Of a DNA stretch of 48,684 nucleotides, positions 24,317-30,995 are shown piece after piece. Numbering within the stretch: position 1 is the stretch's first letter; each line of letters starts with the position of its first letter. The stretch is from contig JACYME010000074.1 of NCBI GenBank assembly GCA_015272155.1, forward strand, positions 1 to 48,684. Reading direction: 5' to 3'. A program made the position numbers and the translations under genes. The notes under the pieces are model-generated. The model made no database searches. It was not told the origin of the DNA and saw only the letters and a list, made by a program, of their open reading frames with translations. This DNA comes from Leptolyngbyaceae cyanobacterium T60_A2020_046 (GTDB lineage Bacteria; Cyanobacteriota; Cyanobacteriia; Phormidesmidales; Phormidesmidaceae).

Positions 24317-24535
24317 ATGGCTGTTGAAAAAGTAAACTCCTCCTCCAGCTTGGCAGAAGTGGTCGATCGCATTCTCGACAAAGGAATTGTGGTTGACGCT
24401 TGGGTTCGGGTTTCCCTCGTTGGGATCGAACTGCTCGCCATTGAAGCGCGCGTCGTCATTGCTTCCGTGGAAACCTACCTGAAGTATGCCGAAGCCGTGG
24501 GGCTGACTGCTCAGGCCGCCGTGCCCGCTGCCTAG
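24317..24535 (+). CDS. gvpA: Gas vesicle structural protein GvpA
   Basis: A 72-residue major shell protein of gas vesicles. It has the near-invariant family sequence: [20 protein letters not shown], then [20 protein letters not shown], then [12 protein letters not shown]. GvpA monomers stack in ribs that form the hollow, gas-permeable cylinder giving buoyancy. GAGG lies 8 bases before the ATG. It is the first gene of the gvpA-gvpC-gvpN-gvpJ series. A stem-loop 28 bases after the stop probably limits read-through, which would fit the need for far more GvpA than accessory proteins. Confidence 0.98.
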
Positions 24536-24815: not shown

Positions 24816-25742
24816 GTGACGGCACTCCGAGATCAATGGCAGGCCCAGCGTCAACATCGGCAGGCCGAGGTTGTCCAGCGACGGCAGGCCGTATTTGCCA
24901 AGCTCAACGACTTTCAGCAGGCCCGCACCCAATCGGCAACCCAACTGCGCCAAGACCTTCAGCAGTTTTATGCCGCCCTCCAGGCCGAAACTGAGCTATA
25001 CCTTGCTCAGATTCATCAACAGCATCAGGCTCGCGCCCGTCAAACCCGCACTGATCTGGGTGAGTTTCATGCCGAGCTACAGGACACCGTGGCCGACTTG
25101 CGCCAGCGGATGCAAGACCAGCTCGCCACCCTCGCAGCAGAAACCCAGCAAACGTTGGCGGGCTATGGCCACGATCGCGCCGTGGCCCGCATTTATGATC
25201 AGCAGCAACGGGCCGCTGAGGTGGCTGATCGCCGCGCCGTTATCGCGGATCAACTGGCCCACCTCCAGACCGCCCGCCAGCAGGCCGCCGTCGTGGCTCG
25301 CCAACAGCGCCAGCGCGATCGCGCCGCCCTGACCGATGAAGTCCAAGCCCTGTGCGATGATTTCGCCATCTTTCGGCAGCAGATGCAGCAATTTCGCGCC
25401 AATTTACGTGCCTCCGTCTGGGGCGACGCCAGCCCAGCCCCCGTCGCACCGCCAGAAGCGCCCCGCCGCGTACGCCCCAAGGCTACCCCGCCCGAGGCAA
25501 CGGCCCCCGCATCACTCCCCGCCGCACCCACAGCCCCACCCGCTGCCGCCGACGTGCCCATTGAAGAAGCCGTCTTTGACTATCTGCATACCCACAGCAC
25601 AGGCGCACGCCTGACGGAAATTGAAGCCCAGCTTGGGATCAATCGATTTCAGGCCGTCGATGCCCTGCGATCGCTCATCCAAAAAGAACTGATCGTGCAG
25701 AAGGACAGAACCTACCACATTCAAGAGGAAGCAGTACTGTGA
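24816..25742 (+). CDS. gvpC: GvpC-like gas vesicle protein with C-terminal winged-helix-like domain
   Basis: A 308-residue protein. Residues 1-200 are Gln/Arg/Ala-rich helix with degenerate repeats of roughly 33 residues ([20 protein letters not shown], then [18 protein letters not shown], then [15 protein letters not shown]). This is the pattern of GvpC, which binds the outside of the vesicle and stiffens it. A Pro/Ala linker (about 205-245) leads to a compact domain (247-308; [20 protein letters not shown] then RSLI) resembling a winged helix. The same domain closes GvpN. The start is GTG at 24816 with AAGGAG 10 bases ahead. The stop overlaps the gvpN start by 4 bases. The GvpC call is by composition and position. 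Confidence 0.75.
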
Positions 25743-26926
25743 ACACGGTTCTTCAAGCCCGCCCCCGCAACTTTGTCAGCACCCCCGCGATCGAGCGCGT
25801 CGCACGCCGTGCCCTGCGCTACCTCCACTCCGGTTATTCCGTACATTTGCGAGGCGCAGCAGGCACGGGCAAAACCACCCTGGCCCTGCACTTAGCCGAC
25901 CTGCTGAGTCGTCCAATCATGCTGCTCTTTGGCGACGACGAATTCAAAACCTCGGATCTGATCGGCAACCAAACGGGCTATACCCGTAAAAAAGTTGTCG
26001 ATAACTATATCCACAGCGTCGTCAAAGTTGAAGACGAACTGCGCCAAAACTGGGTTGACTCACGCCTGACCTTGGCCTGCCGAGAGGGTTTCACCCTGGT
26101 CTATGACGAATTCAATAGATCGCGGCCTGAGGTCAACAATGTGTTGCTGTCGGCCCTTGAAGAAAAGCTTCTGGTGCTACCCCCCAGCAGCCACCGCCCC
26201 GAGTATTTGCGCGTCAATCCCCATTTTCGGGCAATTTTCACCTCCAACCCAGAGGAATATGCGGGCGTTCACGGCACCCAAGATGCCCTGCTCGATCGCT
26301 TGGTCACCATCCACATGCCTGAGCCCGACGAACTGACCCAGCAGCAAATTCTGGTGCAAAAGGTCGGCCTTGACCCCGCTGCCGCGCTGCTGATTGTGCG
26401 GCTGGTGCGCGCCTTCCAAACTCAAACGGAGGCCAACGGTACCACTAGCCTGCGCCCCTGCCTCATGATTGCAACTGTATGCCACGAACACGGCATCCCT
26501 GTCATGGTGGAAGATGCAGACTTTCGGGACGTGTGTAGCGACATTTTGCTGTCGCGGGTGTCGCGCGGGCTGGCGGGCGCGACCCATACCCTGTGGGATT
26601 TGTTTAACGAGTGTGTGGCGTCAGAGCCCGCCGCTGTGAGCGCCCAGGATTTTGCCACCGCTGACGCCGTGGAGCCCGTGGCGGATGAGCACGATGCCCG
26701 TCCAAAATCTGCCGCGATCGCAGACACCGTCGATCTTGAGATTGCCGACCAAATCTATCAATACTTGGTAGCCCACGGCGAGTCCCGACTGTCTGCCATC
26801 GAGTCTGCCCTGACGCTGACCCGGTTTAAGGTCGTGGATGCGCTGCGATCGCTCATCGACGCCAACCGCATTGAAAAACACGCCAAAGCTGGCAGCGCAG
26901 CGGTTTATCGCATTTGCCCAGAGTAG
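25739..26926 (+). CDS. gvpN: Gas vesicle protein GvpN (AAA+ ATPase) with C-terminal winged-helix-like domain
   Basis: A 395-residue MoxR-type AAA+ ATPase. Walker A is GAAGTGKTT (39-47), Walker B is [11 protein letters not shown] (Asp123-Glu124), sensor 1 is [13 protein letters not shown] (Asn170), and the arginine-finger region is [10 protein letters not shown]. GvpN is needed for vesicle enlargement. Beyond the usual family length, residues 328-395 form an added domain ([20 protein letters not shown] then RSLI) clearly related to the end of the GvpC-like protein. The start is GTG at 25739, within the GTGA overlap with the preceding stop, with AGAGGAA upstream, so translation is coupled. Confidence 0.94.
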
Positions 26927-26988: not shown

Positions 26989-27354
26989 GTGACCGGACAA
27001 TCACTTTCCCGTTCATCTAACCGCCCAATGGCGACCGCCACCCAGGGTTCAACCCTGGTCGATGTGCTAGAGCGAGTGCTGGATAAAGGCATCGTCATTG
27101 CTGGCGACATCTCGGTTTCCGTGGGCTCCACAGAGCTGCTGAGCATCCGCATCCGCCTCCTCATCGCTTCTGTGGACAAGGCCAAGGAGATGGGCATCAA
27201 CTGGTGGGAGAGTAACCCTCATCTCAGTAGCCAGTCCCAATCGCTGCTGGAAGCGAACCAAGCCCTCCAGGCCCGCATCGAAAGCTTAGAGACGGAACTC
27301 AAAGCCTTGCGATCGGCGGATTCTGTCTCCACCCCTGAAGACAACCCAACCTGA
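26989..27354 (+). CDS. gvpJ: Gas vesicle protein GvpJ
   Basis: A 121-residue minor gas vesicle protein related to GvpA. Its GvpA-like core (LVDVLERVLDKGIVIAGDIS then VSVGSTELLSIRIRLLIASV) spans about 23-68. NWWESNPHLS and a coiled coil (SLLEANQALQARIESLETEL) follow. This arrangement is characteristic of cyanobacterial GvpJ, thought to act in nucleation or at the vesicle tips. The start is GTG at 26989 with GAGG 8 bases ahead; an ATG at 27028 is an alternative. A 16-bp tandem duplication spans the stop codon. Confidence 0.92.
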   Translation: MTGQSLSRSSNRPMATATQGSTLVDVLERVLDKGIVIAGDISVSVGSTELLSIRIRLLIASVDKAKEMGINWWESNPHLSSQSQSLLEANQALQARIESLETELKALRSADSVSTPEDNPT

Positions 27355-27366
27355 AGACAACCCAAC
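27335..27366. repeat. Perfect 16-bp tandem duplication across the gvpJ stop
   Basis: CTGAAGACAACCCAAC occurs twice without a spacer (27335-27350 and 27351-27366). The stop TGA of gvpJ (27352-27354) lies in the second copy. If one copy is removed, the frame would read on to a TAA at the same codon position, so the protein is unchanged. It looks like a recent slippage duplication. Confidence 0.85.
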
Positions 27367-27411
27367 CTAAAGATTGCGGCAAGCCTGAGGCAAGATTGCG
27401 GCGAACTCAGA

Positions 27412-28077
27412 TCACGTCGCGAAGTGGTAAGGCGGCAAAGGCAGGCTGCACTCACTGTGCCAAGCGGGCGCGATCGCCTGACAAGCTTGCTGTAAATCGA
27501 CATCAGAATCGCGATCGCCCAACACATGAAACCGCAGTTGTCCCTCGTGGGCTGGGCTTTCCACCACACCGACACCCGACGCTTGCCAATGGGCCACCAA
27601 GGCCTCGAGCTGGCGTTGACGCTGCTCTACCCAAGCCGACTGACGCTGAAGCCGCTCCTTTTTCGCGAGAAAATAGTCGCGCCCGCGCAAATCTCCAGAC
27701 AGCGGTTCATCCACCCATGGCATTGGCGTCAGCTTGAGCAAGTATTCCGCTTTGTCGTGCAGCGCTTCGAGGCGCTGGCGATAGGTCTGTTGATGCTGGC
27801 GCAAATGGGCACGAAGACTGGCCTCATCGGTAAATTGTGTGCCAAATCGTAGGGGGAGCAGCGTCGCCTCCGCAAAGGCATCACACAGAACGCGATCGTG
27901 GCTTAGCACGGCAGCCATCAGTAACTGATCATCATCCTTGAGCGGCGTCACATCGAGGCCAGGTTCCACGATCGCAGCCATCGCAGATTCCACAATCCAC
28001 ATCGTCATGGCGGCAATGCCCTGGGGCGGGGTGCGGCGGGGTGGCGGGGCGAGACAAAAGGCGTAGACGTAAATCAA
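27412..28077 (-). CDS. gvpF: Gas vesicle protein GvpF/GvpL family
   Basis: A 221-residue GvpF/L protein: IYVYAFCLAP at the start, ALHDKAEYLLKL in the middle, and RFHVLGDRDSDVDL followed by a PPYHF end, as in the family. The domain order is an N-terminal beta domain, a helical middle with a coiled segment, and a C-terminal domain. GvpF is thought to act in assembly or nucleation together with GvpA. The start appears to be TTG at 28077, overlapping the upstream gene's TGA (TTGA), with GAGG about 10 bases upstream, which implies coupling to the large unknown gene. It converges on gvpJ with 57 bases between. Confidence 0.9.
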   Translation of the reverse strand: MIYVYAFCLAPPPRRTPPQGIAAMTMWIVESAMAAIVEPGLDVTPLKDDDQLLMAAVLSHDRVLCDAFAEATLLPLRFGTQFTDEASLRAHLRQHQQTYRQRLEALHDKAEYLLKLTPMPWVDEPLSGDLRGRDYFLAKKERLQRQSAWVEQRQRQLEALVAHWQASGVGVVESPAHEGQLRFHVLGDRDSDVDLQQACQAIAPAWHSECSLPLPPYHFAT

Positions 28078-29768
28078 CGGGGCAACCTCGCGAGCGCGGC
28101 AGCGCGGGGCTGAGGTTGAAACCGCAACCCCAACGTGAGGCGCAGTTGCACCGTGGGGTATTTCCCCAGGGGACTCGGATCCAGGCTGGAGAGTTCAGCC
28201 ACGGTGCCCTGGAGCCAGAGGCGCACCAAGGGCGACACCTGGCTCAGCGATCGCGTCAACCCTTGGGTCAGGGCCGCCACGCGCCAAGTTTGCCCCGCCC
28301 ACAGCCCCGCTTTGGGAAACTGTAAAATCCCCGTTTCGGGCAAACGTTCAGCAGTTGCGCCCCATTCACCAGTGGCAAGATCCACATCGCCCTGTTCCTC
28401 CCCCCGTTGAATATGGAGGCTGGCGGTAAGCCCCAACTGGCCCCACTGCCACCCTCCCTCCGGCACAAGGCATCGACTTTCTACGCCCCCCATCAGCGTC
28501 ATCACCACGGGATGGGTGTGCAGCACCACCCAGCGCAGGTGAGGGATCAAGTCACTCAACAACAAACTGTGTTGATAGCCGCCGAGGGCGATATCGACCC
28601 CAGCCTGGTGCCGCTGTCGGAGCCCATCGGCACGCCGCACCAGTTCGTGGGCCGCAGCGGCACGATCGCCCTGGGGCAGCAGTCGATTGGGCGGCAGTAG
28701 TGCATCCAGCGCGATCGCCGAGCCCCAATCCGCCAGCCACGCCTCATCGATCAAGGACAGCCACGCAGTCGCCTCAGGCAAGGTCACATCTGCCGCAGCG
28801 GGTAACGCCACCTCGGGCAGCGGCACCGACTGATCCGCCGCATCCTGGGCCGCAGACCACAACGCCTCAGCCCGGCGTTCGAGGTTGCGCAGGCCATCGC
28901 TCGACTCTGGCACAGACGGCACGGGGCGGGCAGCGGGTGGGCGATCGCGCTGCACTCCCATCACCTGCAATTCAAGGTGAAGTCGCCCCGTTCTCCAAGG
29001 GCCTTCGGGCACTAAATAATCCACCGTCCACCCCTGGGCCAAAGACACCACCTCTGGGCAATGGCGGGCTAAGTCATCCCAGAGGCGCGCCAGCCATCCC
29101 TGCACGGGTTGCGGCTCCGCCGGAGACTCACCCGATTCAACCTGAAGATCGGCACTGAGCGGCAGCAGCGCCGCGCCATCCACGGGAGTCTGGGTGACCA
29201 GATCGAGGGCGACGCGATCGCGATCGGTCTGCAAGACCAGCACCGGCACGAGCCGCACGCCAAAACTGGGCTCTGCTACGCCGTTAATCGTGGCTTGCAC
29301 CCCTTCCACCCAGCGCATCGCCGTTTCAGTGCTAGCCACCGTCGCCCAGAGCAGCACATCCATTAATTCAGCAAAGGGCCGATCGCGATCGGCCTCCACC
29401 TGCAATGCCGATAATTCCGCTGGCACAACCAACGCCGAAGCTTCCGCCACCGTTTCCCGCTGGAGCACCTCAATTAAATCATCCGTCTCTTCGCTGACAT
29501 AGGGCAACAGCGTTTCCGGGGTTTGCGGCAGGTGCGACGGCCAGCCCCCCTCCGGGCTACACAGCTCTGCCACCAGCGTCACCAACCGCTGGGCCGCAGC
29601 CTGCACCGGCTGATTCCCCACCCGCGCCCGACCATCCCACACACCCCCCGCCGGAGCCGACACCACGCGATAAACGCCATCGGCCAAACTCCCGAAGGAC
29701 AGTGCGGTGGAGGCAGAACCACGCGATCGCCCAAGTTGGGCATGGGGCCAGACGAGGGGCTCAGACAT
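28074..29768 (-). CDS. Unknown protein (564 residues) coupled to gvpF
   Basis: I do not recognise this protein. From the ATG at 29768 it reads 564 residues (MSEPLVWPHAQLG onward). Earlier starts at 29798 and 29924 are open but lie in poor-looking sequence. It has no signal peptide and no membrane helices. It is mixed alpha/beta with many short beta-type stretches (VRLVPVLVLQTDRDRVALDL, GRLHLELQVMGVQRDRP, LRWVVLHTHPVVMTLMGG), Trp-rich, with a Pro/Glu linker about 315-370. Its 4-base overlap with gvpF suggests joint production. It may be a gas vesicle factor or an unrelated gene sharing a transcript. Confidence 0.75.
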   Translation of the reverse strand: MSEPLVWPHAQLGRSRGSASTALSFGSLADGVYRVVSAPAGGVWDGRARVGNQPVQAAAQRLVTLVAELCSPEGGWPSHLPQTPETLLPYVSEETDDLIEVLQRETVAEASALVVPAELSALQVEADRDRPFAELMDVLLWATVASTETAMRWVEGVQATINGVAEPSFGVRLVPVLVLQTDRDRVALDLVTQTPVDGAALLPLSADLQVESGESPAEPQPVQGWLARLWDDLARHCPEVVSLAQGWTVDYLVPEGPWRTGRLHLELQVMGVQRDRPPAARPVPSVPESSDGLRNLERRAEALWSAAQDAADQSVPLPEVALPAAADVTLPEATAWLSLIDEAWLADWGSAIALDALLPPNRLLPQGDRAAAAHELVRRADGLRQRHQAGVDIALGGYQHSLLLSDLIPHLRWVVLHTHPVVMTLMGGVESRCLVPEGGWQWGQLGLTASLHIQRGEEQGDVDLATGEWGATAERLPETGILQFPKAGLWAGQTWRVAALTQGLTRSLSQVSPLVRLWLQGTVAELSSLDPSPLGKYPTVQLRLTLGLRFQPQPRAAALARLPR

Positions 29769-29933
29769 CACAGCGGTGCGAGGAAAGGTCGCCTTCATTG
29801 TAAAAGCGATAGTTTCGTGCGCACGAAGGGAGCAACAGGGCTTTGCAAAGCGATCGCGCGGGCGGCTGCCAGCGCCGACCGACCTCATCAACACAAGCAA
29901 CCCGGCTCCAACAAAAGGACACAAAAAAAGGAC

Positions 29934-29961
29934 AAAAAAAAAGGCGCGAGTTTCGCGCCTT
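29934..29961 (-). terminator. Intrinsic terminator of the small lipoprotein gene
   Basis: On the minus strand AAGGCGCGA and TCGCGCCTT (29961-29953 and 29949-29941) pair over 9 bases with a 3-base loop, followed by a run of T (29942-29934 read in reverse). It lies 86 bases past the stop of the gene at 30048. Confidence 0.8.
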
Positions 29962-30047
29962 GGGCTGACAGTTCATATACAACGCTTGGCACTCAACTGC
30001 ACCAAGACCCAAAACCGTCAGAACACGAACGAGACCGGCGAAGCAGG

Positions 30048-30302
30048 CTACTCAGCCCCTTCTGCAGCGGGCTCTTCAGTAGCGGCCTCGTCCTCAGCCG
30101 CGGGCTCTTCAGGTGTCGCCTCGTCCTCAGCCGCGGATTCCTCAGCCTCAGTTTCCATGGGCTCCTCAGCAGCGGGATCAACCTGCTCCTCTGCGCCGGT
30201 ATCGCCCGCATCAACGTCAGCGTCGGGGGTGGTGCCGCAAGCAACCAGGCCAAAAGTCAACGCAAACACAACGGCGATCGCGCTCAAAAACTTCGCTTTC
30301 AT
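30048..30302 (-). CDS. Small acidic lipoprotein (84 residues)
   Basis: An 84-residue protein with a clear lipoprotein signal: MKAKFLSAIAVVFALTFG followed by LVAC (lipobox, Cys22). The mature part is almost only Glu, Ala, Asp, Pro and Thr, with an 11-residue repeat (AAEDEATPEEP, AAEDEAATEEP). At DNA level a 19-bp direct repeat recurs at 33-base spacing (30085-30103 and 30118-30136). It has its own Shine-Dalgarno (GAGAGG) and terminator, so it is very probably expressed. It is perhaps an envelope spacer or cation-binding polypeptide; function is unknown. Confidence 0.78.
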   Translation of the reverse strand: MKAKFLSAIAVVFALTFGLVACGTTPDADVDAGDTGAEEQVDPAAEEPMETEAEESAAEDEATPEEPAAEDEAATEEPAAEGAE

Positions 30303-30995
30303 AGAATGATTTTCCTCTCGGTTTCAACAAAACATGAACGACCAAGTACGCCAATCCCTTCTTCCAAAAGGCGTCGGGGACGAGCCATGATGTGTCACTA
30401 AATCGCTCCGGGCTAAAAATTCCTGAGAGCGGCCTAGGACTCCGCAACACTTGTTTGCGAATAGAGCGATACTGTAACACCAGTTGTCACCCCAAGAGAA
30501 TACGCCGCAGGGCGGATGGATCTGCCCGCAGGAGTTTCAAGATCGCGGCCTCAAACCCCGAAATTGCCTATCCCGTGAGCATTTCTAGGATCTCGGCAGC
30601 GGCGATCGCGCCTGCGGCAACGACTTAAAAATTTCTTAACTCACGCTTTACGAATTCATCATGTCGGGCAACAGAGAATCCCGCACAAATCCTGATTTCG
30701 CCAGAATGGTGGCGGCCTGAAGCCAGAGCTGATAACGTTACTTAACAATTCATTGCAGGGACGGCACGGTTGCCCAGAACTTGCTAACGTCTAGGCAAGA
30801 TTTTGGGGGCTCAGGCCCGCTATCGCTTCACATTCGGGCGATGTTGGCGAGTTTTCCCATCCACTATTGCCCGTCGCGGGCGATCGCAGATCACTTTTAA
30901 TCTGCTTATCTTTCGCGAAGCCACACCCGTGGTTGTTGTGAATTTTTGCCGTAAATCTTTGCTGTGAAGATGCTGGTTGACCGTAGAGAACGCCC
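30303..30995. other. 693-bp intergenic region with a possible gene remnant
   Basis: This divergent gap lies between the small lipoprotein gene and the gene at 30996. The only coding-like signal is a minus-strand Ala/Leu-rich stretch at 30490-30628, entered separately. The AT-rich 30640-30770 part may hold promoters. No tRNA or clear terminator is seen. Confidence 0.45.
30490..30628 (-). pseudogene. Possible gene remnant interrupted by TAG
   Basis: The minus strand reads VVAAGAIAAAEILEMLTG, then an in-frame TAG, then AISGFEAAILKLLRADPSAL and RRILLG before TGA. Both halves look like one continuous helical C-terminus, and a CAG would restore the frame. A TAA directly precedes the first half. 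No start codon or Shine-Dalgarno is evident. I cannot name the parent family, and the call rests on amino-acid character alone. Confidence 0.25.

Follow-up and report, generated by a model that had tools for sequence, protein, structure and literature searches.

What is the function of a large open reading frame (ORF) that lies at the end of a gas-vesicle gene cluster, and which Gvp protein could it work with? The question is raised by a stretch of 48,684 nucleotides from Leptolyngbyaceae cyanobacterium T60_A2020_046 (contig JACYME010000074.1, hereafter the window). The cluster has the order gvpA-C-N-J, all on the plus strand, and consists of gvpA (24317..24535, 72 aa, PF00741 at 24347-24463), a coiled-coil gene in the gvpC position (24816..25742), gvpN (25739..26926, AAA+ ATPase) and a gvpJ-like gene (26989..27354, PF00741). 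Its gvpJ end is bordered by two genes on the minus strand, a GvpF/GvpL-family gene (27412..28077), which is convergent with the gvpJ-like gene, and the candidate ORF (28074..29768). The gvpC-position gene and gvpN overlap by 4 nt, and both products carry C-terminal winged-helix-like domains that are related to each other (45 % identity over 44 residues). This common domain could couple the GvpC-like and GvpN proteins.

The candidate ORF and its downstream neighbour

The ORF has 564 codons when read from the ATG at 29768, as described in the initial annotation, and the frame is real, as homologues with about 28-37 % identity conserve it in many genomes. The position of the start codon is uncertain, with an in-frame ATG at 29798 (574 aa) and an upstream TTG at 29924 (616 codons) as alternatives. 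The predicted product is soluble and acidic (pI 4.9), contains 3.5 % Trp and has no transmembrane-like stretch. The TGA stop (28076..28074) does share the letters TTGA with the start codon of the downstream gene, a TTG at 28077; this is the overlap on which the initial annotation was built. A GAGG is found 8 nt upstream of this TTG, and the start is supported by the homologue of the downstream gene in G008 (locus L003/L068), which also has a TTG before IYVYAF.

A terminator-like hairpin with a T-run (29941..29961, minus strand) divides the ORF from a lipoprotein-like gene further upstream, so that the ORF and the downstream gene look like a transcription unit of their own; the hairpin comes from a consensus scan only, and such calls occur at chance rate overall. 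A consensus scan of 27200-30500 recovered no sigma-70-like promoter, a weak negative result as the chance expectation is only 0.6. The lipoprotein-like gene (30048-30302, minus strand) is small and has a Glu/Ala/Pro-rich repetitive tail, and the hairpin that follows it (29961..29941) was called strong.

The downstream gene was initially taken for gvpF, and this identification had to be revised. Its 221-aa product matches PF06386 at 112.6 bits, and against the cyanobacterial GvpF equivalog it reaches 14.9 bits, below the cut-off of 350 bits. The other GvpF/L copy of the same genome, on contig C12, passes the equivalog with 368.9 bits, and the two copies share just 29 % identity across 121 residues. 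The GvpV-like gene of the genome is also located near this main gvpF. We had considered the ORF as a partner of the main gvpF and dropped the idea, since that gene sits on contig C12.

Two GvpF/L paralogues per genome, one with a strong and one with a weak family match, are present in most gas-vesicle genomes. In family f32 (G126, G135, G154, G207, G256 and G299) the weak paralogue follows gvpF in the same orientation, about 1-1.3 kb 3′ of it (e.g. G135, G154 and G207). Locus L111 contains, in this order, gvpF, gvpG (PF05120), a GvpV-like gene that is encoded on the other strand, and the weak paralogue. The published arrangement is gvpF-gvpG-gvpV-gvpW (PMC7204071), and GvpW was described as a 228-aa protein distantly related to GvpL/F (PMC2963123). 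Because the order in f32 and at L111 fits this arrangement, and GvpW is known as a GvpL/F relative, the weak paralogue, including the gene of the window, is best read as gvpW.

In several families (f32, f1 and f25; loci L111, L109, L116, L049 and L094) gvpW is adjoined by a gene for an ArsA/GET3-type ATPase, an assignment confirmed by HMM for the L111 copy alone. No such gene adjoins gvpW in the window. The association of ArsA-type ATPases with gas vesicles was noted earlier (PMC2963123, PMC5464585). Weak, GvpW-like genes are also found in genomes without any gvpA/J (PF00741), namely G047, G066, G079, G102, G141, G089, G124, G142, G271 and G005, hinting at relics or at a use of GvpW independent of gas vesicles.

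Distribution and gene order across Cyanobacteriia

A search with the single sequence recovered full-length homologues among the relatives of the window's genome. In genomes without gas vesicles it returned solely a 50-residue match to genuine MazG, except for the incomplete G024 (73 % complete), in which the gene is present and gvp genes were not detected. For the survey of 291 Cyanobacteriia genomes we counted as family members, by hand from the hit table, only those hits of a 20-sequence profile that extend beyond the MazG-like stretch, and by this measure the family is present in 73 genomes. GvpF/L genes were found in 72 of these 73, versus 160 of the 291 overall (Fisher P about 1e-21), and with the main gvpF as a proxy (E below 1e-45) the counts are 68/73 versus 147/291 (P about 6e-19), both P values ignoring shared ancestry. 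The pattern within f1, the family of the window's own genome, helps against this problem, since the gene occurs in all 19 gas-vesicle genomes and in none of the 15 others. Genera g2, g8, g11 and g12 each include a genome without both the gene and gas-vesicle genes, which in g8 is G017 (87 % complete). The co-occurrence that the initial annotation had suggested checking was thus found, and a link of the family to gas vesicles is well supported by the genomic data. A family that is common in genomes without gas vesicles and has no gvp neighbourhood, named at the outset as the mark of an unrelated gene, is not what the survey showed.

The proposal of a gas vesicle factor stands in that the homologues are nearly confined to gas-vesicle genomes and often lie beside a GvpF/L gene, and it has to be narrowed in two respects. 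Firstly, about half of the gas-vesicle genomes lack the gene, including all sampled members of f5, f23, f31 and f32. The absence from whole families indicates that the ORF product is a lineage-specific factor with no general requirement for it. Secondly, a few genomes carry the gene without gvpA, as described below.

Of the 73 genomes, 32 have the gene directly 5′ of gvpW and co-oriented with it, and these genomes belong to seven families (f1, f6, f7, f15, f18, f25 and f28). The same holds for 15/15 named loci, which come from Nodosilinea, Leptolyngbya, Phormidium and their relatives; these loci were located by an alignment-based scan, while a single-protein scan of the same contig collection gave no relatives. 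What is conserved is the co-orientation and the short gap; the TTGA overlap is not general among the homologues. The HMM matches of the gene and gvpW are 3-6 bp apart in five f15 genomes, and three f15 genomes carry the genes in opposite orientations with about 2 kb between them. A distance of about 9-13 kb separates the pair from the main GvpF gene in G049 and in three genomes of f25. In many genomes, mostly from f24, the gene is far from gvpW, unlinked and with no conserved neighbour, and in G014 the gene and the main gvpF are present and gvpW was not found. Upstream of gvpW in G052 (L061 5803-8038), the family gene is broken into two adjacent ORFs (378 and 128 codons), which a frameshift might explain.

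Five family-positive genomes have no PF00741 gene. Four of them (G168, G221, G238 and G265) retain GvpW as their only GvpF/L gene, and the fifth is G258. In G258, an assembly of 700 contigs that is 95 % complete, neither PF00741 nor GvpF/L was found. These genomes may hold leftovers, or the ORF may have a role outside gas vesicles. A broader form of the latter idea is that the ORF and GvpW are a two-gene module with its own function, e.g. a protein-assembly or membrane task, whose link to gas vesicles is indirect. It would be in line with the GvpW genes without gvpA in G047, G066, G079, G089, G102, G124, G141, G142 and G271, and with the four more such genomes that keep the ORF, which is full-length in G168 and likewise in G258. 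However, the gvpA-less cases are a small minority, the presence of the gene in f1 tracks gas-vesicle genes exactly, and a gvp cluster lost only recently would leave remnants of identical appearance. We consider such an independent module unlikely.

Protein architecture and comparison with known families

Sequence searches of Pfam, NCBIfam, PHROGs and PDB yielded partial MazG-like or KGK-like matches and PDB hits at chance level only, and a plasmid collection contained no match to the ORF. The initial statement that the protein has no recognised domain is nearly right, apart from a similarity to MazG that stays below the thresholds. About 50 residues of a helical N-terminal segment (approximately residues 53-107; 29448..29612, minus strand) match the first helices of MazG. 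The family profile hits E. coli MazG (3crc) with E 1.1e-10, and the ORF scores 17.3 bits with PF03819 (cut-off 22) and 22 bits with the NCBIfam model (cut-off 208). The alignment covers only the first 40-50 MazG positions, the second half of the MazG domain is missing, and MazG has no counterpart of the region that follows in the ORF product. In this degenerate segment the EExxE-like motif is partly retained, and ExxD is absent in all aligned homologues except the window sequence, where it is possibly a chance match. Both features make it unlikely that the segment is catalytically active as in MazG.

The MazG-like segment could still sense a nucleotide, and the protein might then be a regulatory pseudo-enzyme that tunes gas-vesicle production and takes no part in assembly. 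This is what the similarity to 3crc and the partly retained EExxE-like motif would suggest, but the similarity is limited to the initial 40-50 MazG positions, ExxD is absent in the homologues inspected, and the repeat region makes up most of the protein. Such a regulatory role seems rather improbable to us.

The remainder of the protein is not of the beta type initially proposed; the fold is predicted to be alpha/beta, with four alpha-alpha-beta-beta repeats behind the MazG-like N-terminus. Comparison of the family profile with itself revealed that the profile is internally duplicated (E 1.5e-24) and contains an additional shift of roughly 90 columns; together these imply four modules. On the minus strand these are module 1 (residues 132-180; 29229..29375), module 2 (222-272; 28953..29105), module 3 (404-455; 28404..28559) and module 4 (497-552; 28113..28280). 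The AlphaFold2 model of the whole protein (mean pLDDT 61.7) has four corresponding helix-helix-strand-strand units and long low-confidence linkers. A model restricted to modules 1 and 2, for which the alignment contained both halves, reached pLDDT 91.3 and pTM 0.84. Foldseek gave no match at E<=0.001 for the full and two-module models against PDB, or for the two-module model against viral models. The best VIA-align Z was 6.3 for the full model, on a helix of low confidence, and 2.8 for the two-module model, with no clear match, although an absent structural match is no proof of a new fold.

Some homologues score against the cyanobacterial KGK domain (PF08872) with the stretch corresponding to module 2, and one does so with module 3. 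With 38.5 and 25.8 bits, two homologues exceed the gathering score of 25.6, others are just below it, and the window protein has no such match. The literature found on the KGK domain concerns other proteins. Longer family members from other families, L043 (1078 aa), L046 (888 aa), L044 (766 aa) and L045 (764 aa), may carry extra repeat modules.

Repeats of this kind would suit repeated binding to a regular lattice, and together with the way the gene tracks gas-vesicle genes they could point to a minor vesicle protein, bound to the shell or placed at the tip, instead of a soluble assembly factor. Nevertheless, the linkers are long and of low confidence, and in most genomes the gene is paired with a GvpF/L-type gene and not with gvpC or gvpA. 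We find such a role in the vesicle similarly improbable.

The known proteins that resemble the ORF product most in their context are those of the GvpF/GvpL family (PF06386, including GvpW), which are likewise linked to gas vesicles, soluble and encoded in the shared putative operon, and which probably act at the same assembly step. They differ from it in size and predicted architecture. PF06386 has no match in the ORF product, and a relationship to GvpF/L was rejected on the profile-profile (hhalign) probability of 0.3 %. The genes for GvpV, GvpX, GvpK and GvpG are also accessory genes close to gvpF or gvpW, but they encode small proteins. The literature searched contained no description of the ORF family as a Gvp, although an earlier report elsewhere is possible, and no interaction, phenotype or proteomic results. 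A study of co-evolving cyanobacterial genes recovered a gas-vesicle module with ATPases (PMC5862535), and a co-occurrence study recovered one with ArsA and two uncharacterised proteins (PMC5464585); neither module could be linked to the ORF family. No curated model covers the family, which would be a new component of the gas-vesicle system.

A possible assembly factor acting with GvpW

Work on other organisms shows that GvpF binds GvpA, for which it was proposed as a chaperone, and that GvpL, the proposed assembly platform, contacts most of the other Gvp proteins; GvpF/L proteins bind shell subunits of the GvpA/J type (PMC9501494; PMC11445434). On this basis and that of the distribution and gene order, and with a probability that we put at roughly 60 %, the ORF product would be a lineage-specific accessory protein of gas-vesicle assembly that acts with GvpW, most likely as a scaffold or co-chaperone. 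The ORF and gvpW would form a small putative operon, translationally coupled in the window, so that both proteins would probably be made together and form a complex. A stoichiometric partner is the simplest reading of genes that share a putative operon and often have closely spaced starts. GvpW would handle shell-type subunits by analogy with the GvpF/L proteins of other organisms. The ORF product would contribute a MazG-derived helical N-terminus, probably no longer catalytic, joined to the four modules, which would present binding surfaces for GvpW and/or shell subunits.

A stricter version of this proposal would make the ORF product and GvpW an obligate scaffold subcomplex, with tandem modules behind a dead MazG cap, that is used in several lineages and acts also without a GvpA shell. 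We put this version forward only tentatively and hold it to be doubtful.

Gas vesicles serve as acoustic reporters. If the proposed assembly role is true, the ORF product would be an extra part for the kits used in heterologous gas-vesicle expression, and it could help to account for the irregular vesicles obtained from some heterologously expressed clusters. It would also give GvpW a large and testable partner in many filamentous cyanobacteria, one that the clusters published for Anabaena and Microcystis do not contain.
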